Shown here one piece after another: positions 3,815 to 22,720 of a DNA stretch of 64,000 bases. The first letter of the stretch is position 1. Each line of letters starts with the position of its first letter. A model generated the notes under the pieces. The model was given only the letters and a program-made list of their open reading frames with translations. It made no database searches and had not been told where the DNA came from. The translations under genes and the position numbers were made by a program. The DNA lies in assembly GCF_016894345.1 (NCBI RefSeq), contig NZ_CP069798.1, forward strand, positions 682,001 through 746,000. The letters run 5' to 3'. The stretch is from Paralysiella testudinis (GTDB lineage Bacteria; Pseudomonadota; Gammaproteobacteria; Burkholderiales; Neisseriaceae).

Positions 3815-3911
3815 AAAATCAACCCCCCATCTTGCCCCCATATCCGGCTGAATCTTGCCTGCCGTTATGCCATAATCAACGCTGCCTTTACCCACCCCGG
3901 TGCCCGCAGCC

Positions 3912-4886
3912 ATGTCTAAAGCCAAAACCAAAACGCCCTACATCCCCGCTACCGAGCTCAAAACCATTCTGCATTCCAAGCGGGCGAATCTGTATTATCT
4001 GGAGCATTGCCGCGTGTTGGTGAACGGCGGGCGGGTGGAGTATGTCACCGACCAAGGCAAAGAATCGCTGTACTGGAATATCCCCATTGCCAACACCACC
4101 TGCATTTTGCTCGGTAGCGGCACTTCCATTACCCAAGCGGCGGTGCGCGATTTGGCCAAGGCCGGGGTGATGATGGGCTTTTGCGGCGGCGGTGGCACGC
4201 CTTTGTTTGCCGGTAGCGAAGCGGAAACGGCGTGTGAATTTTTCAGCCCGCAAAGCGAATACCGTCCCACCGAGTATTTGCAGCAATGGTGCCGTTTTTG
4301 GTTTGACGACGCACAGCGCCTAGCGGTAGCCAAGCAATTGCAGCAACTGCGCCTGCACATCATCGCCCGCACTTGGCCGAAACACGCTTGGACGTATGAC
4401 GCCGAAGCCCTCAGCCGCCTACTCACCCAATACACTGAAGTCTTTGCCCAAGCGGCAGACAGCATGAGCCTGCTGGCGGCAGAAGGCCGGCTCAGTGCGC
4501 AGCTCTATGCGCTGGCCAACCGCGCCACGCTCAACCAGCCCGAATTCAAACGCAGCCAGCGCGGCAACTCGGTGGATCCGGCCAACCGCTTTTTGGATCA
4601 CGGCAATTACTTGGCCTACGGCATGGGCGCCACCGCCTGCTGGGTGTTGGGTTTGCCGCACGGCTTAGCGGTATTGCACGGCAAAACACGGCGCGGCGGC
4701 TTGGTGTTTGACGCCGCCGACATCGTCAAAGACGCCATGATTCTGCCGCAGGCCTTTATCGCGGCGGCAGAAGGTGCGGGCGAGTCTGAATTTCGGCAAA
4801 ACTGCATCGCCCAGCTCACCCGCTTTGAGGCGCTGGACACGGTGATTGAAGGCTTGCAAAGCTTGGCCAAAGCAGGTGCGGCATGA
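3912..4886 (+). CDS. cas1: type I-F CRISPR integrase Cas1
   Basis: Cas1 is the integrase that, with Cas2 (here fused to Cas3), inserts new spacers at the leader end of the array. The I-F subtype is recognised from KRANLYYLEHCRVLVNGGRV and SLYWNIPIANTTCILLGSGT in the N-terminal half and FCGGGGTPLF at about residue 90. Catalytic residues are visible: Glu in AAEGRLSAQ, His in GLPHGLAVLHGK (about residue 250) and Asp in LVFDAADIVKD (about 266). I chose ATG at 3912 rather than the GTG four codons upstream because the family begins close to this point. The protein is then 324 aa, the usual size. The stop overlaps the next start (ATGA), so cas1 and cas2-3 are translationally coupled. Confidence 0.96.
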   Translation: MSKAKTKTPYIPATELKTILHSKRANLYYLEHCRVLVNGGRVEYVTDQGKESLYWNIPIANTTCILLGSGTSITQAAVRDLAKAGVMMGFCGGGGTPLFAGSEAETACEFFSPQSEYRPTEYLQQWCRFWFDDAQRLAVAKQLQQLRLHIIARTWPKHAWTYDAEALSRLLTQYTEVFAQAADSMSLLAAEGRLSAQLYALANRATLNQPEFKRSQRGNSVDPANRFLDHGNYLAYGMGATACWVLGLPHGLAVLHGKTRRGGLVFDAADIVKDAMILPQAFIAAAEGAGESEFRQNCIAQLTRFEALDTVIEGLQSLAKAGAA

Positions 4887-7800
4887 ATATTCTGCTCATT
4901 AGCCAATGCCATAAAAACGCCCTCAAAGAAACCCGCCGCATTCTCGATCAATTTGCCGAGCGTTGCGGCGAGCGCACATGGCAAACGCCGATCACACAAG
5001 CGGGCTTGGCCACCTTGCGCAAGCTGCTGCGCCAAAGCGCGCGCAAAAACACCGCCGTGGCCTGCTACTGGACACACGGCAAAAACCACACCGAGCTATT
5101 GTGGGTGGTGGGCGATCGGCGCCAGTTCAACGAACAAGGCCGCGTGCCCACCAACCGCACCCGCCGCAATATTCTGCGAGCCGAGGCCGAACACGGCAGC
5201 CGCCACGCCCACAGCATCCAAATCATGGCCACCTTGGCGGCGCTGCTGCACGACATCGGCAAAGCCACGCTGGGTTTTCGCAATAAACTCAAGCAAAGCA
5301 AAATCCAAGCCGGTGACCCGTATCGGCACGAATGGATTTCCCTACGCCTGTTTCAGGCCATGATTCACGGCTGCACCACCGATGCGCAATGGCTGGCGCG
5401 CTTGGCACAGTGGCGCGACTATGCGCAGGCGCAGCCCGATTGGGATAGCCGCATCATCAACGACAGCCATGCCAAGGCCAGCCATGATTTCTCCAGCGCC
5501 CCACCGTTGGCGCAATGGTTGATGTGGTTGATTGTCACCCACCACCGCTTGCCGTTTTACAGCGTCAACTACCATAAAGACAGCGAGCGCAAAGGTTTGC
5601 AGCAAAGCAGCAGCCATTATTATGCGATTACCCTAGCGGAATGGTATCGCGCCTACCTCACCCCCGTGTCCGGCTGGGTGTGTCCGCCCAGTTGGCAGAC
5701 CAATATCCATCCGCAACCACAACAGTTTTGGCAATTCCCGCCCGCTGATGAAAGTGAGCAGTCTGCAGCCAATCAGCCCTTGGATGCGCCCGCTATTCAC
5801 CACGTCATCCGCCACGCCATGGACAGCACCACCTGGCAGCAAACCATGCGCCGCTGGGCGAATAAAGCGCTCAACCACCCGCCGTTAATGGCTTTAAGCC
5901 AAGCGGCGGCGCCGATTGCCGACCCCTTGCTGCTGCATTTGTCGCGCCTGTGCTTGATGGTGGGCGACCACAATTATTCGAGCTTAAAACCGGGCGATGC
6001 CAAGCGCGTGCCCGCCGATGCAAACTTCAAACTCTATGCCAACACCGATCCGCTTTCAGGCAGCCTGAAACAAACGCTAGACGAACACCTGTGCGGCGTG
6101 GGCAAATTCACCGCCCGTTTTGCCCGTTTATTGCCGCAGTTACCACAAGCATTGCCCGCCATCAGCACACGCCACAAACCCTTTACTGCGCGCAGCCAAA
6201 ACCCGCGCTTCCAATGGCAAGACCGTGCCTACGACTTAGCCCGCAGCGTGCGTGAAGCCAGTGCGCAGCAAGGTTTCTTCGGCGTGAATATGGCCAGCAC
6301 CGGCTGCGGCAAAACCTTGGGCAACGCCCGCATCATGCACGCGCTGGCCGATCCAGAGCGTGGTCTGCGCCTCACCGTGGCGCTGGGTTTGCGTGTGCTC
6401 ACCCTGCAAACCGGCCAGGCACTGCGCGAGAAATTGGGCTTGGATGAAGACAGCTTGGCGGTATTGGTGGGTGGCGCGGCCAACCGCACCTTGTTTGAAT
6501 TAAACCAAACCGAGCCTGAGCCGCGCGATTCGAGCGAAACGCCGGATTTTGGCAGCGAGTCGGCACAGGCCTTATTGGATGATGCCGAAAGCGTAGACGG
6601 CATGGCCGGCGTGAGCGAAAGTGCCGTGGATGCGGATGAATTCGGCACCGTGATTGCCGACACCAAGGCGCGGCAACTGCTGTATGCGCCGATGGTGAGC
6701 TGCACCATCGACCACTTGATGCAGGCCAGCGAATGCTTGCGCGGCGGCAAACACATTGCGCCGATGTTGCGCTTGCTCAGCGCCGATTTGATTCTGGACG
6801 AGCCGGACGATTTCAACCAAGCCGACCTGCCCGCACTGGCGCGGCTGGTGCATTGGGCCGGCTTGCTCGGCAGCCGCGTGCTGCTGTCTTCCGCCACACT
6901 CACCCCCGATTTTGTCAGCGGCCTGATGCAGGCCTACCAAGCCGGCCGCGCCATTTGGGCGCAACACCAAGGGCTGCCTGAAACGCCCGTGCTGTGCGCC
7001 TGGTTCGACGAATACACCCAAAGCAGCCATGCCTGCGCCGATGCCGCCGAATTTGAACGGCAACACCGGCAGTTTGCACAACAGCGTGCCACCGAGCTTG
7101 CCGCCGCTGCCGTGCGCCGCCAAGCCGAGATTTGGCCGTTGAAGCTGCCCAAAGCGCCGGAAGGGCAAAAATTGCACTTTGCCGCCTTGGCCGAGCAAAT
7201 CGTTCAGGCAGCCTATCAGCTGCACAACGCACACGGCGAAATCAGCCCGCACGATGGCAAACACATCAGCGTAGGCCTGGTGCGCTTAGCCAATATCGGC
7301 GCCATCACCGCACTGGCGCAAGCGCTGCTGGCAAGCGCTGCGCCCGAAAACACCCGCATCCACCTGTGCTGTTACCACGCCCGCCAATTACTGCTGTTGC
7401 GCAGCCGCTTGGAAAACACCTTGGATCGCCTGCTCAACCGCACCCAGCCCGAAAACCTGTTCAGGCAGCCTGAAATCATCGCCGCCACCGCAAACCAGCC
7501 CGAGCAGCAGCATATCTTTATCGTGCTGGCCAGCCCGGTGAGCGAAGTGGGGCGCGACCACGATTACGACTGGGCAATTATCGAGCCTTCCTCCATGCGT
7601 GCCATCATCCAATTGTGCGGGCGCGTGTGGCGGCACCGCCCGCACAAAACCGCCGAGCAAGCGAATGTGCTGATTTTGGGCAGCAATCTGCGCTCCCTGC
7701 GCCAGCCCAATTTGCTGCTGGGTGAAGCCACCTTTATCTACCCCGGCTTTGAAGAAAAACCGCGCTTTTTACTGCGCAGCCACCGCAGCGAAGAGCTGAT

Positions 7801-8350
7801 TACGCCTGAGCAGCTGGCGCACATCAACGCCATTCCCCGCATTGTTCAGCCGGAAATACCGGAACCCGCCAAACTGCGCCGCTTGGCCGATTTGGAACAC
7901 GCCGTGATGGCCGACTTGCTCAATCCCGCCACCCCTAATTTTGTCAGCGCCTATTGGCAGCCCAACAACGCCAACCGCGCCTGCGTCCACAGCCAGCGCA
8001 TCGCCCCGTTTCGCGCCAGCCAGCGCCAAACCGACTACACCTGCCTGCCTAATGACGACAGCGATTGGGGCTTTGTGTTCAAACAGTCCGAAAAGGCTTG
8101 GGCACATCCCTACGATGCAGACGCCGGTAAAGCCAGCATCCGCCATTACCGCCTGCCCGCCAGTACCGGCCGTATACAGCCGTGGCTGCACACCGATTTA
8201 CACACCGCCGTGACCCAACTTTCCGAACAACTCAGCGAAGCAGACCCCACCCAAACCACCCTGCGTTTTGCCACCGTTTCACTGCCAGAAGACCAACAGC
8301 CTGCGGCGAGCTGGTGGTTTAATGAGTGGTTGGGGTTTGGGGATTTTTAA
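4883..8350 (+). CDS. cas3: type I-F Cas2-3 fusion nuclease-helicase
   Basis: This enzyme unites two jobs. The N-terminal Cas2-like domain (about residues 1-95, starting MNILLISQCHKNALKETRR) bridges Cas1 dimers during spacer uptake. The Cas3 part degrades DNA marked by the Csy complex. The HD nuclease motif LLHDIGKATLGF has His-Asp at 123-124. The helicase follows, with a Walker A ASTGCGKTLGNAR near residue 471 and a DEAD-box-like LILDEPDDF near 638. A Ser/Asp/Glu-rich linker (about 545-590) separates helicase motifs, and the C-terminal domain follows. At 1155 aa it is slightly longer than typical I-F proteins (about 1070-1110), mostly through that linker. It overlaps cas1 by 4 bp. The next cas gene is 298 bp away, behind its own promoter. 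Confidence 0.96.
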   Translation: MNILLISQCHKNALKETRRILDQFAERCGERTWQTPITQAGLATLRKLLRQSARKNTAVACYWTHGKNHTELLWVVGDRRQFNEQGRVPTNRTRRNILRAEAEHGSRHAHSIQIMATLAALLHDIGKATLGFRNKLKQSKIQAGDPYRHEWISLRLFQAMIHGCTTDAQWLARLAQWRDYAQAQPDWDSRIINDSHAKASHDFSSAPPLAQWLMWLIVTHHRLPFYSVNYHKDSERKGLQQSSSHYYAITLAEWYRAYLTPVSGWVCPPSWQTNIHPQPQQFWQFPPADESEQSAANQPLDAPAIHHVIRHAMDSTTWQQTMRRWANKALNHPPLMALSQAAAPIADPLLLHLSRLCLMVGDHNYSSLKPGDAKRVPADANFKLYANTDPLSGSLKQTLDEHLCGVGKFTARFARLLPQLPQALPAISTRHKPFTARSQNPRFQWQDRAYDLARSVREASAQQGFFGVNMASTGCGKTLGNARIMHALADPERGLRLTVALGLRVLTLQTGQALREKLGLDEDSLAVLVGGAANRTLFELNQTEPEPRDSSETPDFGSESAQALLDDAESVDGMAGVSESAVDADEFGTVIADTKARQLLYAPMVSCTIDHLMQASECLRGGKHIAPMLRLLSADLILDEPDDFNQADLPALARLVHWAGLLGSRVLLSSATLTPDFVSGLMQAYQAGRAIWAQHQGLPETPVLCAWFDEYTQSSHACADAAEFERQHRQFAQQRATELAAAAVRRQAEIWPLKLPKAPEGQKLHFAALAEQIVQAAYQLHNAHGEISPHDGKHISVGLVRLANIGAITALAQALLASAAPENTRIHLCCYHARQLLLLRSRLENTLDRLLNRTQPENLFRQPEIIAATANQPEQQHIFIVLASPVSEVGRDHDYDWAIIEPSSMRAIIQLCGRVWRHRPHKTAEQANVLILGSNLRSLRQPNLLLGEATFIYPGFEEKPRFLLRSHRSEELITPEQLAHINAIPRIVQPEIPEPAKLRRLADLEHAVMADLLNPATPNFVSAYWQPNNANRACVHSQRIAPFRASQRQTDYTCLPNDDSDWGFVFKQSEKAWAHPYDADAGKASIRHYRLPASTGRIQPWLHTDLHTAVTQLSEQLSEADPTQTTLRFATVSLPEDQQPAASWWFNEWLGFGDF

Positions 8351-8393
8351 ACAAGGTTGTAGCCATTGAAAGAAGGTAGGGCAGAAATTAAGC

Positions 8394-8399
8394 TATAAT
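8394..8399 (+). promoter_or_regulatory. -10 box of a putative mini-CRISPR promoter
   Basis: A perfect TATAAT lies 24 bases before the first degenerate repeat, placing a start point near 8406. No clean -35 at 16-18 bp spacing is visible; TTGAAA at 8366-8371 is 22 bp away. A 16-bp perfect palindrome follows directly at 8407-8422. Confidence 0.55.
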
Positions 8400-8406
8400 G
8401 CTTTTG

Positions 8407-8422
8407 GCTCATCATGATGAGC
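8407..8422. other. 16-bp perfect palindrome at the 5' end of the mini-CRISPR transcript
   Basis: GCTCATCATGATGAGC reads the same on both strands. It lies between the putative start point and the first degenerate repeat. It could be a repressor operator or, in RNA, a 6-bp hairpin with a CAUG loop. No family is recognised. Confidence 0.6.
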
Positions 8423-8504
8423 AGTAAATGCCGAATAGGCAGCTTAGAAAATAGAGGCTTCGCTTTTTTATTAGCGCTTTACCGCCGAATAGGTGGCACG
8501 ATTA
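8423..8504 (+). ncRNA. solitary mini-CRISPR: putative Cas-regulating crRNA (CreR-like)
   Basis: Seen: two degenerate I-F repeats flank a 26-nt pseudo-spacer. Repeat 1 (8423-8450) keeps the whole 3' half of the array repeat, AGGCAGCTTAGAAA, including the Cas6f cut site and the 8-nt handle CTTAGAAA. Its loop is GAATA where the arrays have GCACA. Repeat 2 (8477-8504) shares the GCCGAATAGG core but has lost the 3' handle. Its stem CCGCC/GGTGG carries a compensatory T-A to C-G change. The pseudo-spacer is 8451-8476. Cas6f processing would give a 54-nt RNA (8443-8496) with a 5' CUUAGAAA handle and a 3' hairpin. Another hairpin at 8497-8512 (CACGAT/ATCGTG) may end the transcript. Known: degenerate mini-arrays near cas operons encode Cas-regulating RNAs in several CRISPR types. 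Inferred: this one guides the Csy complex to 8563-8588. Confidence 0.8.
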
Positions 8505-8560
8505 ATATCGTGTTGTGAGCAAATCATCTAATTATTTAATGGGTGGTTTGTTGTAAAATA

Positions 8561-8588
8561 CCATAGATGTTTCACTTTTAATTTGACG
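8561..8588 (+). promoter_or_regulatory. CC PAM plus protospacer-like operator matched by the mini-CRISPR spacer
   Basis: CC at 8561-8562 is the I-F PAM. It is followed by 26 bases (8563-8588) that match the mini-CRISPR pseudo-spacer at 18 positions, including positions 1-5, 7, 9-11, 13-17, 21-22 and 25-26. Mismatches are at 6, 8, 12, 18, 19, 20, 23 and 24. The last six bases are the -35 hexamer of the csy1 promoter, so a bound Csy complex would cover it. The partial match suits binding without full target destruction. This is a sequence-based inference. Confidence 0.75.
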
Positions 8589-8611
8589 TTCCTTGATTGA
8601 AGAGATATGAT
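8583..8611 (+). promoter_or_regulatory. sigma70 promoter of csy1-csy2-csy3-cas6f
   Basis: TTGACG at 8583-8588, a 17-bp spacer and TATGAT at 8606-8611 form a near-consensus promoter. The start point should lie near 8618. A ribosome-binding site (AGAAGGAGAG) precedes the csy1 ATG at 8649. The effector genes therefore have a promoter separate from cas1-cas2-3. Confidence 0.8.
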
Positions 8612-8648
8612 TTGATCATACAAGTTTGCAGAAAGAAGGAGAGCGCCC

Positions 8649-10022
8649 ATGCAAGACATCACCCGCGCTGACGTTCAGGCCGCCATCAGCGGTTTTCTGA
8701 ACGATCAGTTTCTCAAAAAAGCCGAGCCGGACATTAAGCGGCTGGAAAAAGCCGAGACGGAGCAGAACGAAGCCGCTATTGCCGCCGCGCAAGAAGCGCT
8801 GGCACAGTGGCGGCATAAATACAGCGCGCCGATATGGCTGGACGATGCGGCGCGGCGTATGGCCGGGCAGCTCAAATTTGGCAGTCATATCTCAAAGGGC
8901 ATTCACCCGGATGCCAAGGGCGATAATGTCAATTTCTCTGCCGACACGCCGTTGCCCGAGCATTTAATCGGCTCGCAATCGGCGCATGCCTTGGCGCTGG
9001 ACGCCAATGGCAACGCGGCGGCACTGCCGCTGGCGGCTTTTTTTAATACGCCGGTGGGCGCGGCACAAATGGTGAAATTGCGCCAGCTAATTACCCAAAA
9101 CCATCCGGCGTTGCAAGGTTGCTTTGCCGATGATGCCGCGCTGTCAGATGAATATCAGCTGTTGTTTCAGGCAGCCTTAATCGGTGCAACGGATGCGCCA
9201 ATCACGCATGAGCGCAATAAGCAAATTCTGTGGCCGCGCGGTGAGCAGGCCATTGTGCATGATGATTATATTTGCTTGGTACCGCTTTACCCTTCGGCGC
9301 TTACCCATGCGGTGTACCAGCAGATCAATCAAGCGCGCTATTCGGAAGAAAACAAGCTGGCGCGTGATAATCGCTTTAAAAAAACCGCCGAACATAAGCC
9401 CTATGTCAGCATCACGCAACTGGCCATCACCAAATTGGGCGGCACCAAGCCGCAGAATGTGTCGCAGCTTACCAGCGCACAAGGCGGGCGCAATTATTTA
9501 CTGCCCAATCTGCCGCCGAAATTGCAATCGAGCAAAGCCTTCAAAATCTCAGCCGTGGCGGTGACCATTTTCAATAAACGCCTGCGTTACCACAGCTACC
9601 GCGGTTGGATTGAATTTGATGAAGTGATTAAAGCGAAGAAAAGCGTGATGGCGGTGCGCGATCAACGCAAGCTGGCTTTGCAAATGATTTTGGCCGAAGT
9701 ATTTCAGATTGCCGAGCGCATTCAAACCCAATGGCCGGCCGGTTGGAGCCGTGATTATCAGCTCAGCATGGCGGAAAAATATTGGCTTGATCCGGATCGC
9801 GCCGATTTGGAAGGCGAAGAGGCGTTTAAAGCCGCCTGTGATGCGGGCGATTGGGCGGGGGAGGTAATCCGCAGTTTCGCGCTATGGCTCAATCAGTGGC
9901 TGAAAGAAACGCACACGGCCATCGCCGAGGATTTCGATGAGGCCGAGGAATCCGAATGGCGCCGCGCCATGGCCTCTGCCCTGCGCACCAGCCAACGCCG
10001 CTTCGGGAGAATCTACGCATGA
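8649..10022 (+). CDS. csy1: type I-F Csy1 (Cas8f) large subunit
   Basis: Csy1 forms the tail of the Csy surveillance complex with Csy2, contacts the crRNA 5' handle and reads the CC PAM. The 457-aa protein matches the family at its N-terminus (RADVQAAISGFLNDQFLKK), at LKFGSHISKGIHPDAKG (about residues 76-92) and in SLTSAQGGRNYLLPNLPPKL-like sequence (QLTSAQGGRNYLLPNLPP, about 272-289). It is slightly longer than the roughly 430-aa norm, partly through the charged N-terminal helix. The ATG at 8649 follows a good ribosome-binding site. Its stop overlaps csy2 (ATGA). The promoter carries the proposed self-target site. Confidence 0.95.
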   Translation: MQDITRADVQAAISGFLNDQFLKKAEPDIKRLEKAETEQNEAAIAAAQEALAQWRHKYSAPIWLDDAARRMAGQLKFGSHISKGIHPDAKGDNVNFSADTPLPEHLIGSQSAHALALDANGNAAALPLAAFFNTPVGAAQMVKLRQLITQNHPALQGCFADDAALSDEYQLLFQAALIGATDAPITHERNKQILWPRGEQAIVHDDYICLVPLYPSALTHAVYQQINQARYSEENKLARDNRFKKTAEHKPYVSITQLAITKLGGTKPQNVSQLTSAQGGRNYLLPNLPPKLQSSKAFKISAVAVTIFNKRLRYHSYRGWIEFDEVIKAKKSVMAVRDQRKLALQMILAEVFQIAERIQTQWPAGWSRDYQLSMAEKYWLDPDRADLEGEEAFKAACDAGDWAGEVIRSFALWLNQWLKETHTAIAEDFDEAEESEWRRAMASALRTSQRRFGRIYA

Positions 10023-11026
10023 ATCACGCCAACTACTATCTATTATTCGACCGCATCCAAATTCAGGCAGCCAATGCCATTTCCGGCCCATTAAGCTACG
10101 GCTTTCCCTCGCTGAATGGCTTTTTGGGCGCCATCCATGCGCTGAACCGCAGGCTGCCTGAAAGCGACGGCATCACCTTGGGCGGTGTGTTGGTGGCCTG
10201 CCATCATTGCGATGTGCAGCTGTATCGCCCGCACGCGTATGCCGATGCCACGTTTAACCAAAGCCGCAATCCGTTGAAGAAAAACGGCGACACCGCCGCC
10301 ATTATCGAAGAAGGCAAAGTGCACCTCACCGTAAGCCTGCTGGTGGAAGTGCGCAAAGCGGATCAAGTCTGGGCCAATTTAAGCCAAAACCCGCAGGCTA
10401 GCGAATGGTGTACACAGGTGCAAAACATGCTGATGCAGCAGCGCATTGCCGGTGGCAGCGTTACCAGCATTGGCCGCACCCAGCTCTTTGAGTCACACCA
10501 ACAAGACGACATGATTGCCGCCTTGCTGCCTGCTTTTGTGCTGATGGATGCCGGGCAGGATTTGCTGGCGATTACCCGCGAATTGCAAACCGGCCAACAG
10601 CATCTGGTGAATGAGTTCGACGAAATTCAGCCCGCTTGTGATGAAAACGGCGCACCTCTGCCCAGCGCCCGCCCCGCACAAACAGAGGTCACCGCGCTGG
10701 ACGCCTTGATTGAAGTGGCCACCTTGCACCATCTGCCACCCGATGCCAAAGACAGCAAAGAATGGCGAGCCTACAGCGTCAAAAGCGGCCGCGGTTGGCT
10801 GGTGCCGTTGCCGGTGGGCTATCAAGGTATTGCCGCACCGTTTGCCGCCGGTGAATTGGCGCACTGCCGCACCGCCGAATACCCCAGCCAATACGTTGAA
10901 ACGATTTACAGCCTCGGCAAATGGGTGTTCCCGTTTAGGCTGCCTGAAAACTTTCAGCAATGCTTTTGGCGCTACGCCACCCCGCAAGACAATTTGTATC
11001 TGATTACCCAACCCCCAGCCCACTGA
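10019..11026 (+). CDS. csy2: type I-F Csy2 (Cas5f)
   Basis: Csy2 is the Cas5-like subunit that pairs with Csy1 and binds the crRNA 5' handle. The protein has 335 aa from the ATG that overlaps the csy1 stop; an upstream in-frame extension into csy1 is unlikely to be used. Family features are YYLLFDRIQIQAANAISGPL at the N-terminus, the FPSLNGFLGAIHALNR segment (about residues 29-45) and the glycine-rich RGWLVPLPVGYQGIA near 258-273. The gene continues the tightly spaced csy operon. Confidence 0.94.
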   Translation: MNHANYYLLFDRIQIQAANAISGPLSYGFPSLNGFLGAIHALNRRLPESDGITLGGVLVACHHCDVQLYRPHAYADATFNQSRNPLKKNGDTAAIIEEGKVHLTVSLLVEVRKADQVWANLSQNPQASEWCTQVQNMLMQQRIAGGSVTSIGRTQLFESHQQDDMIAALLPAFVLMDAGQDLLAITRELQTGQQHLVNEFDEIQPACDENGAPLPSARPAQTEVTALDALIEVATLHHLPPDAKDSKEWRAYSVKSGRGWLVPLPVGYQGIAAPFAAGELAHCRTAEYPSQYVETIYSLGKWVFPFRLPENFQQCFWRYATPQDNLYLITQPPAH

Positions 11027-11048
11027 TTTTAAATTTAAGGAGAAAAAC

Positions 11049-12056
11049 ATGACTACATTGACCACCGCCAGCGTATTGGCTTTTGAGCGCAATCTGGATA
11101 TTTCCGATGCCACCTTCACCCAAATCGACAGCCAAAAGCCCGATGCCAAGGCAAGCATGGTTAAAGTGCGCGAAAAATCCGTGCGCGGCACCATCAGCAA
11201 CCGCCTAAAAAATGCCATTGCCAACGACCCCACCAAGCTGGACGCCGAAATCCAAAAGCCCAACCTGCAAACCGTCGACGTGGCCACACTGGATGACGAC
11301 AAAGACACCCTCATCGCCCGCTGGAGCTGCAAAGTACTGCCCTTTACCGGCGAACCAAGCGTATGCAACAACAGCGACTACCAAGCCAAGCTGATCGACA
11401 CCGTATCCGGTTATTTGCAACAACACGGCGTAAACGAATTGGCACGCCGCTACGCCGCCAACATCGTCAACGCCCGCTGGCTCTGGCGCAACCGCATGGG
11501 CGCCGAAACCATCCGCATCCAAGTGCGCACCCAGATTGACGGCAAAGACCAAACCCTCGAATTTGCCGATGCCAAAGCCCACCCGCTCAACCATTTCGAC
11601 TGGCAAGCCGACGGCCTGAGCCAATTAAGCGACTGGATTGCAAAAGGTCTGCGCGGCGAAGCTTTTGTGATTCTCTATATCGAAGCACGCGCCAAAGTCG
11701 GCTATGGCCAAGAAGTCTACCCTTCGCAAGAGCTGATTCTCGACACCGGCAACCGCAAAAGCAAAGTGCTTTATCAAATTAACGACAAAGCCGGCATGCA
11801 CAGCCAAAAAGTCAGCAATGCCATCCGCACCATCGACACCTGGTACCCGAATGCCCAATTCCCCGTCGCTGCCGAACCCTATGGCGCCGTCACCACGCTG
11901 GGCACCGCGTTCAGGCAACCTAAGAAGGGTGATGACTTCTATACTCTGTTCGACAACTGGGTACTCAAAGGCACAGCCCCATCCGTGGATGAACAACACT
12001 ACGTTATCAGCGTGCTGATTCGCGGCGGCGTATTTGGTGCCAGCGGCAAGGAGTAA
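11049..12056 (+). CDS. csy3: type I-F Csy3 (Cas7f) backbone subunit
   Basis: Csy3 polymerises along the crRNA, normally six copies on a 32-nt spacer, each taking a 6-nt step and flipping out every sixth base. The 335-aa protein starts MTTLTTASVLAFERNLDISD and contains the family stretch ARRYAANIVNARWLWRNRMG (about residues 133-152), which includes the Ala-Asn-Ile-Val motif seen in Cas7f. A strong ribosome-binding site (AAGGAGAAAA) precedes the ATG. The high output expected from it fits the six-fold stoichiometry. The 6-nt step is relevant to the unusual 26-nt pseudo-spacer at 8451-8476. Confidence 0.95.
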   Translation: MTTLTTASVLAFERNLDISDATFTQIDSQKPDAKASMVKVREKSVRGTISNRLKNAIANDPTKLDAEIQKPNLQTVDVATLDDDKDTLIARWSCKVLPFTGEPSVCNNSDYQAKLIDTVSGYLQQHGVNELARRYAANIVNARWLWRNRMGAETIRIQVRTQIDGKDQTLEFADAKAHPLNHFDWQADGLSQLSDWIAKGLRGEAFVILYIEARAKVGYGQEVYPSQELILDTGNRKSKVLYQINDKAGMHSQKVSNAIRTIDTWYPNAQFPVAAEPYGAVTTLGTAFRQPKKGDDFYTLFDNWVLKGTAPSVDEQHYVISVLIRGGVFGASGKE

Positions 12057-12059
12057 ACC

Positions 12060-12629
12060 ATGAGCCAAAGCCACTACCTCGAGCTGCGCGCCATACCGCA
12101 GCCCGAGCTCACCCAAAGCCAAGTGCTCAGCCACCTGATGCAGGCGCTGCACCAACACCTGCCCGCCTACGCGGGGCGTATTGGCGTGGCCTTCCCCGGC
12201 TACGGCCAAGCGCGCACCCTCGGCGGCATCATCCGCCTGATCGGCAATGAGGCCGACTGCCAAGCCCTGCACCAGCAATTGCACGCCAGCGGCAACATCA
12301 GCGACTACGCCTTGCTCTACGCTGTGGCCAAAGTACCCCAAGGCATCCAAAGCCATGCGCGCTACAGCCGCAGCCACCACAAAGGCCCAAGCGCCCTGCG
12401 CCGCGCCGAACAGCGCCTCAGCGCCCAAGGCAAATGGCAGGCCGAAATCGCCGACAAAATGCGGGCAAAATGGCAAACCCCGCCCAAACTGCCTCACCTA
12501 CAACTAAGGAGCGCCAGCACCAAACAAACATTCACCCTCTGGATTCAACAGCAAAACCACACCCACCCCAAACCCGGTCTATTTAGCGCCTACGGCCTCA
12601 GCCAAGAGGCCACTGTACCGCAGTTTTAA
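12060..12629 (+). CDS. cas6f: type I-F crRNA endonuclease Cas6f (Csy4)
   Basis: Cas6f cuts pre-crRNA at the base of the repeat hairpin and stays bound to the 3' end of each crRNA. Its 189 aa align well with Pseudomonas Csy4. His31 in ALHQHL corresponds to the catalytic His29. Ser151 in LRSAST corresponds to Ser148. The Arg-rich helix RYSRSHHKGPSALRR (101-115) lies where Csy4 grips the RNA major groove. The C-terminus SAYGLSQEATVPQF is typical. It starts three bases after the csy3 stop and ends the cas operon, 147 bp before the array. It should process both long arrays and the mini-CRISPR at 8423-8504. Confidence 0.96.
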   Translation: MSQSHYLELRAIPQPELTQSQVLSHLMQALHQHLPAYAGRIGVAFPGYGQARTLGGIIRLIGNEADCQALHQQLHASGNISDYALLYAVAKVPQGIQSHARYSRSHHKGPSALRRAEQRLSAQGKWQAEIADKMRAKWQTPPKLPHLQLRSASTKQTFTLWIQQQNHTHPKPGLFSAYGLSQEATVPQF

Positions 12630-12776: not shown

Positions 12777-15700
12777 GATTCCTGCCGCACAGGCAGCTTA
12801 GAAATGTTGATTCACAGCAAGCATGTATGTCTGTAAGATTCCTGCCGCACAGGCAGCTTAGAAAACGCGCGGCGGCTGCCAAGTTGGGTTTTGCTAGATT
12901 CCTGCCGCACAGGCAGCTTAGAAAACAGCCAACGTGCGCCCGCTCACTGCCTCAAAGATTCCTGCCGCACAGGCAGCTTAGAAAGCTCAAGCCCAGCTCA
13001 ATAGCCGCCACGATGCGATTCCTGCCGCACAGGCAGCTTAGAAATCCGCACTTCGACCTGCTTTAATATCCGCCATGATTCCTGCCGCACAGGCAGCTTA
13101 GAAACAACAACCCCAATACCACTATAAGTCCAAACAGATTCCTGCCGCACAGGCAGCTTAGAAATGCTGTTGCGCAGGAGCTGGCACGGGCACGCTGATT
13201 CCTGCCGCACAGGCAGCTTAGAAACATTACCCCCCCGCTTTAAATTTAATATCTTCGATTCCTGCCGCACAGGCAGCTTAGAAAAAACCGCGAACCGATG
13301 CAGGGGGTGAATCTGGGATTCCTGCCGCACAGGCAGCTTAGAAAATATTTGGCAAGTGAGGGTTATGAATGGCTTGGATTCCTGCCGCACAGGCAGCTTA
13401 GAAAATCTGCATCATTTTCTGCGCCATCATGTCTTGGATTCCTGCCGCACAGGCAGCTTAGAAACAATACCCCGCGCGGGATAGATTCCGCTGTGCGATT
13501 CCTGCCGCACAGGCAGCTTAGAAAATCCATGCTTCAGGCAGCTAGGGCTTGTCAAAGATTCCTGCCGCACAGGCAGCTTAGAAAAACAGGCGCTTAATAA
13601 GGCGAATTGCCCACACGATTCCTGCCGCACAGGCAGCTTAGAAATGAAAATGTCGGTGCAGTGGTTGCATATGACGGATTCCTGCCGCACAGGCAGCTTA
13701 GAAATCCTTTTCTCCCAAACTGGGGATTCTGTAGCAGATTCCTGCCGCACAGGCAGCTTAGAAAATATTTGGCAAGTGAGGGTTATGAATGGCTTGGATT
13801 CCTGCCGCACAGGCAGCTTAGAAACAGCAAACCCTGAAAACAATGGCAAAGTGTTTTGATTCCTGCCGCACAGGCAGCTTAGAAAATTGCCAAATTTGCT
13901 ACGGTTAGTTACAATTCGATTCCTGCCGCACAGGCAGCTTAGAAAATATACCCGTTTTCTTCTTTTTCACCAGTATTGATTCCTGCCGCACAGGCAGCTT
14001 AGAAAAACTGCAGAAATCATAATAGCGAATTTGGCAAGATTCCTGCCGCACAGGCAGCTTAGAAAGTGGCCGAGCACCACTATCGCCGCGCCGTCTAGAT
14101 TCCTGCCGCACAGGCAGCTTAGAAAAAACGCGCGGGCAGGTGCACAGCGGCCAAAATGATTCCTGCCGCACAGGCAGCTTAGAAAATTAACATAGGCAGC
14201 TACAGCGGCACATTCACGATTCCTGCCGCACAGGCAGCTTAGAAATGATTTACAGCCCGAAAGCCCTGAAGCCCCGGGATTCCTGCCGCACAGGCAGCTT
14301 AGAAATTTAACACCTTTTTTTGCATTTCCCAATAGTTGATTCCTGCCGCACAGGCAGCTTAGAAATTAGCCAAATACGCCGCCGCATCTTGCGGCGTGAT
14401 TCCTGCCGCACAGGCAGCTTAGAAATTTTCATAAATAAAACAAATGGCAGCCTTATGGATTCCTGCCGCACAGGCAGCTTAGAAATATGCTGCTGACTTT
14501 TGCAGGCCGCATACTCAGATTCCTGCCGCACAGGCAGCTTAGAAACCAAACCCATTACTGGCACGCCATCGAAAACAAGATTCCTGCCGCACAGGCAGCT
14601 TAGAAAAGACTGATGCGCTGGCGCAGCATAAACGGCAGGATTCCTGCCGCACAGGCAGCTTAGAAAAGCCGGGCGGTGTAGCCGTCAAAGTCGTTGTAGA
14701 TTCCTGCCGCACAGGCAGCTTAGAAAATAAGGCAAAGATGCTGCGGGGATTTCTGCCCGATTCCTGCCGCACAGGCAGCTTAGAAAAGATGAATAACTTT
14801 AGTTCTTATAGCTGGCTTGATTCCTGCCGCACAGGCAGCTTAGAAAAGATGAATAACTTTAGTTCTTATAGCTGGCTTGATTCCTGCCGCACAGGCAGCT
14901 TAGAAAGCCGCAGAGCGCAAAGCATTGCAAGCCAAAGCGATTCCTGCCGCACAGGCAGCTTAGAAAATCGGTGGCGCGCACTGCTGCCCAAGCCATATGA
15001 TTCCTGCCGCACAGGCAGCTTAGAAACGCCTAAATACATGAATGCCATGATTGAACAAGATTCCTGCCGCACAGGCAGCTTAGAAATATAAAGGCCGCAA
15101 ACTCTTCAGCAACATTAAGATTCCTGCCGCACAGGCAGCTTAGAAAAACAACAGACTGCATGAATGGCTGCCTGATAGGATTCCTGCCGCACAGGCAGCT
15201 TAGAAACAATACGACACCTTTGAAGACGCTTTCAATTCGATTCCTGCCGCACAGGCAGCTTAGAAAGCTGCCGGTCTGTCACTGGCCGCTATGTCCGCGA
15301 TTCCTGCCGCACAGGCAGCTTAGAAAAATCTGATGATTCGGCTGCACTTGCGAAGTCAGATTCCTGCCGCACAGGCAGCTTAGAAATGACAGCCGTTTTC
15401 TTGGTCGCGGAAATGCACGATTCCTGCCGCACAGGCAGCTTAGAAAACTTTCCATGCAAATTGGGGATTGAAATGCTAGATTCCTGCCGCACAGGCAGCT
15501 TAGAAAGCCGCCCCGGCGGCCAACACTTTAACAATGGTGATTCCTGCCGCACAGGCAGCTTAGAAAGTTTGTTAATGCAACACGTGAAAGTCAAAATTGA
15601 TTCCTGCCGCACAGGCAGCTTAGAAATTTGAAGACGCCTTCAATTCCGGCACTGAAGAGATTCCTGCCGCACAGGCAGCTTAGAAATCCGTTCGTTCGGC

Positions 15701-22093: not shown

Positions 22094-22720
22094 GTTTACT
22101 GCCGCACAGGCAGCTTAGAAAGCCGGCATTATGAACGACAACATGCGTGGCGAGATTCCTGCCGCACAGGCAGCTTAGAAATTAGCGATTGCATGAAGTT
22201 TAGTAGCCATGATGATTCCTGCCGCACAGGCAGCTTAGAAAATGAAGCGTCCAAAGCGGGGGCGGTAGTCGCCGATTCCTGCCGCACAGGCAGCTTAGAA
22301 AGCACTGGCCGCAGAATCAGGATGCCAGCCGGAGATTCCTGCCGCACAGGCAGCTTAGAAAGTTGAAGGCCGTATGCCGCCCGTCGTCCGTCGGATTCCT
22401 GCCGCACAGGCAGCTTAGAAAACTGCGCCACTGGCACCGCCGCCGCTTAATACGATTCCTGCCGCACAGGCAGCTTAGAAATACAACAACATGGTTCGCT
22501 TCCAAGCCGCTGCGATTCCTGCCGCACAGGCAGCTTAGAAATCCTGCCGCACCGCCCGATTCAATCGGATTTTGATTCCTGCCGCACAGGCAGCTTAGAA
22601 ATTGGTGACCATGAAGTCAGTTATGGAGTCGTTGATTCCTGCCGCACAGGCAGCTTAGAAATCGGGTGTCAGGTTTCAGGTGCCGGACATCAGGGTTTTG
22701 CTGCATAGGCAGCGTAAGAG
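22094..22720 (+). CRISPR. CRISPR array 2, type I-F, 10 repeats plus a degenerate end
   Basis: Ten repeats start at 22094, 22154 and then every 60 bases to 22634. A heavily decayed repeat at about 22693-22720 keeps GCTGCATAGGCAGC and marks the distal end. Nine spacers are 32 nt; the last, before the decayed repeat, is about 31. The first repeat differs: it begins GTTTACTGCC, closer to the common I-F form, where all others begin GATTCCTGCC. No sequence like the array 1 leader precedes it, so the array is probably no longer growing. The spacer at 22542-22573 begins with TCCTGCCGCAC, identical to repeat positions 4-14. Shared repeats mean the same Cas proteins can use it. Confidence 0.98.

Follow-up and report, generated by a model that had tools for sequence, protein, structure and literature searches.

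We have analyzed a window of 64,000 nucleotides (nt) of the contig NZ_CP069798.1 of Paralysiella testudinis (genome of 2.9 Mb), which contains on its forward strand a complete type I-F locus of clustered regularly interspaced short palindromic repeats (CRISPR). The genes found are cas1 (3900-4886, PADLOC Cas1f, E 1e-145), cas2-3 (4883-8350, Cas23f, E 0), csy1 or cas8f (8649-10022, Cas8f, E 6e-126) and then csy2 (cas5f), csy3 (cas7f) and cas6f, which together cover 10022-12629 (PADLOC and genome search). The cas6f match at 12060-12629 is the only one in the whole genome, and the array of the window begins 3' of this gene, at 12777. The subject of this report is a much smaller element, located in the 298-bp intergenic gap between cas2-3 and csy1, where two repeat-like sequences and one spacer (8423-8504) adjoin the cas genes. 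Mini-CRISPR RNAs that regulate cas genes, the CreRs, were reportedly described by Liu et al. in 2023 (Cell Host Microbe 31:1481), and this arrangement is the layout of a CreR.

Mini-array and genomic arrays

An ordinary type I-F array has identical intact repeats, spacers of 32 nt and a period of 60 nt. Here, the two repeats are degenerate and unlike each other, and the spacer ATAGAGGCTTCGCTTTTTTATTAGCG (8451-8476, forward strand) has 26 nt, that is 6 nt or one Cas7 segment below the usual length. Repeat 1 (8423-8450) reads AGTAA ATGCC GAATA GGCAG CTTAGAAA and repeat 2 (8477-8504) reads CTTTA CCGCC GAATA GGTGG CACGATTA, both on the forward strand. The 5' handle CTTAGAAA is complete in repeat 1 (8443-8450), whereas repeat 2 agrees with it at only 2 of 8 positions. 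The stem of repeat 2 is perfect, 8482-8486 pairing with 8492-8496 over 5 bp around the loop GAATA (-7.6 kcal/mol, against -7.8 kcal/mol for the repeat hairpin of the window array); a full five-pair stem with a G...A loop in the permitted range appeared in about 1% of shuffled stretches. A preliminary description of this DNA, made from its letters, had reported this CCGCC/GGTGG hairpin at 8477-8504 and the selective decay of the second handle, and on both counts it was accurate. The weakened stem is that of repeat 1 and not that of repeat 2: ATGCC/GGCAG forms 4 bp (-5.7 kcal/mol), the basal C-G having become A.G. In Rfam, repeat 1 gave a match to CRISPR-DR4 below the cut-off (22 of 35 bits), and a pestivirus match was discarded as noise (17.9 of 150 bits, E 0.61).

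The repeat of the window array is GATTC CTGCC GCACA GGCAG CTTAGAAA. Compared to it, pair 2 of repeat 2 went from T-A to C-G and pair 3 from G-C to G-U, as the preliminary description had noted in proposing that a compensatory change had preserved the hairpin. Actually, the genome has a second array outside the window, at about 2.384-2.392 Mb (2384000-2392700), with 146 identical repeats GTTTC CCGCC GAATA GGCGG CTTAGAAA. Relative to this one, repeat 2 shows just one stem substitution, C to T, which turns G-C into G-U; there is no two-sided change, and the GAATA loop is identical. Besides, the metagenome-assembled genome (MAG) of a Pelistega, the closest csy1 relative (89/94 support), carries CCGCC-GAATA-GGCGG as its own repeat 2. 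Since the second array and the Pelistega repeat already have the C-G pair, its origin within the mini-array need not be assumed, and we have dropped the idea of a compensatory change private to this element. The loop GAATA is indeed common to both mini-repeats, but the statement that it is unlike the GCACA of the arrays does not stand, the second array carrying GAATA 146 times, and the long separation of mini-repeats and arrays that had been deduced from this loop loses its support. We found no second cas6f accompanying the second array in this genome: either one Cas6f serves two repeat types or this array is idle. Ten more repeats of the type of the window array form a block at 22099-22661, about 3.2 kb beyond the end of the main array.

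A putative -10 box with the exact consensus TATAAT (8394-8399, forward strand) precedes the mini-array, which is probably driven by this promoter of its own, judging from the sequence. The box is located 28 nt from the stem of repeat 1, compared to about 7 nt usually in the homologues described below. Immediately 5' of repeat 1 there is a perfect palindrome, GCTCATCATGATGAGC (8408-8423), which forms a hairpin in folding and may act as a leader hairpin or as an operator. Another perfect palindrome, CACGATTAATATCGTG (CACGAT-TAAT-ATCGTG, 8497-8512), has as its first half the former handle of repeat 2 and may likewise be a hairpin or an operator.

Target site and csy promoter

The best match of the spacer in the window, considering both strands, is the protospacer ATAGATGTTTCACTTTTAATTTGACG at 8563-8588 on the forward strand, directly preceded by CC as protospacer-adjacent motif (PAM, 8561-8562). 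Over positions 1 to 17, leaving out 6 and 12, spacer and target agree at 14 of 15, while shuffled spacers average 7.9 (P 0.002). A pattern search of the whole genome recovered the target with one mismatch and all other sites with three, the mini-array itself aside, and the 259 array spacers of the genome all stay below 13/15 on the target region. Together with the swapped spacers of the homologous loci (see below), these values rule out a chance match. They bear as well on the idea of an ordinary immune mini-array directed against an invader, for which the match to the promoter would be a coincidence. A guide provided with handle and hairpin could serve immunity; however, neither the array spacers nor the swapped ones reproduce the match, and the handle has been lost from repeat 2 only, so that we find this idea scarcely credible. 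We give equally little credence to the view that the hairpins have nothing to do with a guide RNA and serve as protein-binding sites, terminators or leader structures: the palindromes flanking the repeats would fit it, but no terminator-like site was found, and the handle of repeat 1, the spacer match and the PAM are left unexplained.

The target ends on the -35 box, which it contains, of a sigma70-type promoter of the csy operon, TTGACG-17-TATGAT (8583-8611, forward strand, consensus match). No other promoter-like site was found in 8330-8680 on either strand. Such a match alone is weak evidence (shuffles average 0.9), but its position fits csy1: the predicted transcription start is near 8618, leaving a leader of about 30 nt to the csy1 ATG at 8649. 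A CreR has a PAM-flanked partial match in a cas promoter, and here we found CC, 14/15 and an overlap with the -35 box of a promoter recognized by consensus. Between target and csy1 no credible mini-open reading frame (ORF) with a Shine-Dalgarno sequence was found, either by reading 8505-8648 or by an ORF scan. The short ORFs detected there share sequence with the -10 box or with csy1 and have the look of chance occurrences. A toxin gene at this place was rejected on that basis, and the element appears not to be coupled to a toxin gene, as expected of a CreR, although there is some small chance of a toxin made of RNA only.

A comparable element is the type I-F creTA of Acinetobacter WCHA45, in which creA is found in the cas3-csy1 gap, CreA consists of 8 + 20 + 20 nt according to small RNA sequencing, and transcription is repressed via a partial match of about 17 nt beside CC (PMC10097628). 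Both elements occupy the same gap and have two degenerate hairpin repeats, a short spacer (20 nt in Acinetobacter), a CC PAM and about 17 paired bases; a degenerate mini-CRISPR with a partial, PAM-flanked match is what defines CreTA on the guide side. From this position and anatomy, our element could be the creA antitoxin of a CreTA pair, with a guide that represses a toxin RNA, creT, and with the downstream csy genes as incidental neighbours, and the small genes that separate target and csy1 in some of the homologous loci would suit this as well. Nevertheless, in Acinetobacter the gap measures about 400 bp and the target controls a toxin mini-ORF; the present gap has 298 bp and no visible toxin, and its target lies on the csy1 promoter. 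The predicted start is only about 30 nt from csy1, no mini-ORF behind a Shine-Dalgarno sequence was found in between, and a promoter that reads straight into csy1 is not one controlling a creT toxin. We consider an antitoxin unlikely.

Homologous loci

We examined 99 loci anchored on csy1, taken from GTDB genomes and, in addition, from genomes sampled within the same family, order and class. A locus was counted when a hairpin and handle similar to repeat 1 (stem of at least 4 pairs, handle of at least 6/8) were followed by 17 nt agreeing at 13/15 or more with a CC-flanked site near csy1; positions 6 and 12 were not used in the choice and no condition was put on repeat 2. The layout, with a target match of at least 13/15, was shared by 32 of the 99 loci, distributed over many families, a figure that depends on the locus collection and on the pattern used for repeat 1. 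Two candidates, at -848 in locus L012 and at -322 in L016, were without target and look like pieces of ordinary arrays. The target of L092, at about -640, was found in a wider scan. One locus titled Pseudomonas stutzeri NCTC11607 groups with Aggregatibacter in its I-F genes and comes from a 1.9-Mb genome; the strain is probably mislabelled or contaminated.

In each of the 32 loci a repeat-2 hairpin follows at a distance of 20-36 nt, and 30 of them have 5/5 pairs; the other two, from Moraxella, have 4/5 pairs, the same as their own array repeat. Over the whole set 99.3% of the pair cells of repeat 2 are paired, and two-sided changes appear in four of the five pairs. The covariation score of repeat 2 was above all 500 shuffles and above all slid versions; as kin sequences can beat shuffles, more weight is due to the slid controls and to the fact that the loci were chosen without bias. 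Repeat 1 covaries likewise, although it had been selected for its stem. When pair 2 of repeat 2 is traced on the csy1 tree, its C-G state requires 7 changes, and well-supported branches make no fewer than 5 of these unavoidable, indicating that the covariation is genuine at the level of the family. The mean identity of the handle is 7.4/8 for repeat 1 (selected for at least 6/8) and 3.0/8 for repeat 2. The covariation check proposed in the preliminary description, run across genera, has thus come out in favour of its central claim, selection for a working single CRISPR RNA (crRNA) and not a dead array, since the repeat-2 hairpin was present in every locus chosen without regard to it, and the pattern named there as contrary, a broken repeat 2 beside an intact repeat 1, was seen in none.

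In type I complexes every sixth base of the guide is flipped out. The identity between spacer and target by position was at least 0.88 at 1-5, 7-11 and 13-17, and fell to 0.38 at position 6 and 0.22 at position 12, so that pairing has been kept exactly where it counts. When spacers were swapped among loci, only six of 992 scores were 13 or higher, all of them inside three near-identical pairs, and none of the other 986. The distances between the handle and the stem of repeat 2 form clusters at 24-25, 29-31 and 35-36, with a period of 6 (Rayleigh p about 2e-4, uncorrected for kinship); the value in our window is 31, corresponding to the 26-nt spacer. In 16 of the 32 loci, the csy1 strand has a sigma70-like site that overlaps or adjoins the target, while random placement would give 4.5. 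An exact TATAAT is found up to 45 nt upstream of repeat 1 in 34% of them, usually about 7 nt from the stem, compared to 7% in shuffles.

This pattern is also what speaks against a decaying remnant of a true array with a self-derived spacer, its hairpin surviving by chance or because of its recent age. The lost handle of repeat 2, the lost pair of repeat 1 and the non-standard spacer length could be taken for decay. Yet decay would not give such a conserved pattern, with the layout recurring in so many families, the second hairpin in all loci and the mismatches concentrated at positions 6 and 12, and we regard a remnant as very unlikely.

Some members of the set have other genes in the vicinity. 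A small protein is encoded between target and csy1 in L012 (about -291, Neisseriaceae) and L034 (about -246, a MAG of Pseudomonadales), with 86 and 78 amino acids, respectively. These two proteins are 37% identical, share the motif ...IPGTFWV.. / ..LPGTFWV.. and have no Pfam match; by its location the gene is a candidate for CRISPR control. In L044 (about -324, Psychrobacter) and L092 (about -381, another gammaproteobacterium) the same place is occupied by a DUF2188 gene (PF09954, E 5e-21 and 2e-14).

Proposed function and known systems

We interpret the element, from its observed anatomy, target, PAM, promoter overlap and conservation, as a type I-F CreR, a gene for a cas-autorepressing, crRNA-like RNA between cas2-3 and csy1, with a probability of roughly 0.86. 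Transcription, processing, repression and sensing are predicted as follows, from the sequence and by analogy. Cas6f would cut the transcript at both degenerate repeats, producing a 54-nt guide RNA (8443-8496, forward strand) with the 8-nt handle, the 26-nt guide and a 20-nt 3' stem-loop, the hairpin of repeat 2 becoming the 3' end. This predicted RNA is based on the cut of Cas6f (Csy4) at the 3' base of each stem and on the homologous CreA of Acinetobacter; the conserved hairpins, the handle and the -10 box are indirect signs that it may be made, processed and loaded. The guide would be held by Csy1, Csy2, Csy3 and Cas6f, and the Csy complex so loaded would bind its target beside CC (8563-8588), covering the -35 box, and block transcription of csy1-csy2-csy3-cas6f, the predicted repressed operon of which csy1 is the first gene. 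With about 17 nt paired and a guide one segment short, the R-loop would be too short to fire Cas2/3, and the cell's own DNA would be bound but left uncut. More free Csy complex would lead to stronger repression, while anti-CRISPRs or competing crRNAs would lift it.

Several points weigh against this interpretation. The csy promoter was identified only by its match to the consensus, and the lost basal C-G of repeat 1 could slow the cutting by Cas6f. The loci, gathered with csy1 as query, do not represent a random sample. Even the closest csy1 genes in the comparison share about 50% identity, too little for a base-by-base alignment of the intergenic regions. The upstream distance of the target from csy1 exceeds 170 nt in about a dozen of the 32 loci, and some loci have a small gene in between, so that cas regulation need not be the role of every member.

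Published systems resemble the proposed CreR in different ways. It shares with known CreRs (PMC12737573, PMC13131331, PMC12948488) a mini-CRISPR beside the cas operon, a limited match of the guide to the cas promoter, the absence of a toxin and the predicted autorepression through the cell's own effector. The CreRs reported in PMC13131331 are of types I-B, I-E and V-A, whereas the present element is of type I-F and its guide is one 6-nt segment below the usual length. In vitro, a I-F Cascade whose spacer has 26 nt (-6) can bind a target flanked by CC and open an R-loop, yet Cas2/3 is not triggered (PMC7296934). The guide length and the flanking CC are the same as here, and that work shows why short R-loops do not trigger the nuclease, although its guides were engineered and fully matched and did not form part of a regulatory element. 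Racr RNA anti-CRISPRs (PMC10651486) are also repeat-like RNAs that use Cas proteins, but they are viral mimics of a solitary repeat, while here two repeats and a targeted spacer are found in a chromosomal cas locus of the host.

On a broader scale, type I-F systems might possess a standard layer of regulation that has so far not been listed, made up of promoter-targeting mini-CRISPRs in about one third of the csy1 loci across Gammaproteobacteria. Their guide lengths would follow 6-nt Cas7 steps and their pairing would be limited to about 17 nt, allowing Csy to bind while Cas2/3 is not fired; some members would control csy and others the small genes between target and csy1. We give this generalization even odds. 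The 32 loci, with their targets, PAMs and periodic mismatches, provide natural data on the guide-target contacts that allow binding without cleavage, and the comparative set points to small genes possibly under CRISPR control. If the proposed CreR is real, it would represent a testable wiring for the self-adjustment of a type I-F system, with a dedicated guide that senses free Csy and puts a brake on the promoter, and anti-CRISPR proteins directed against Csy would be predicted to raise csy expression.
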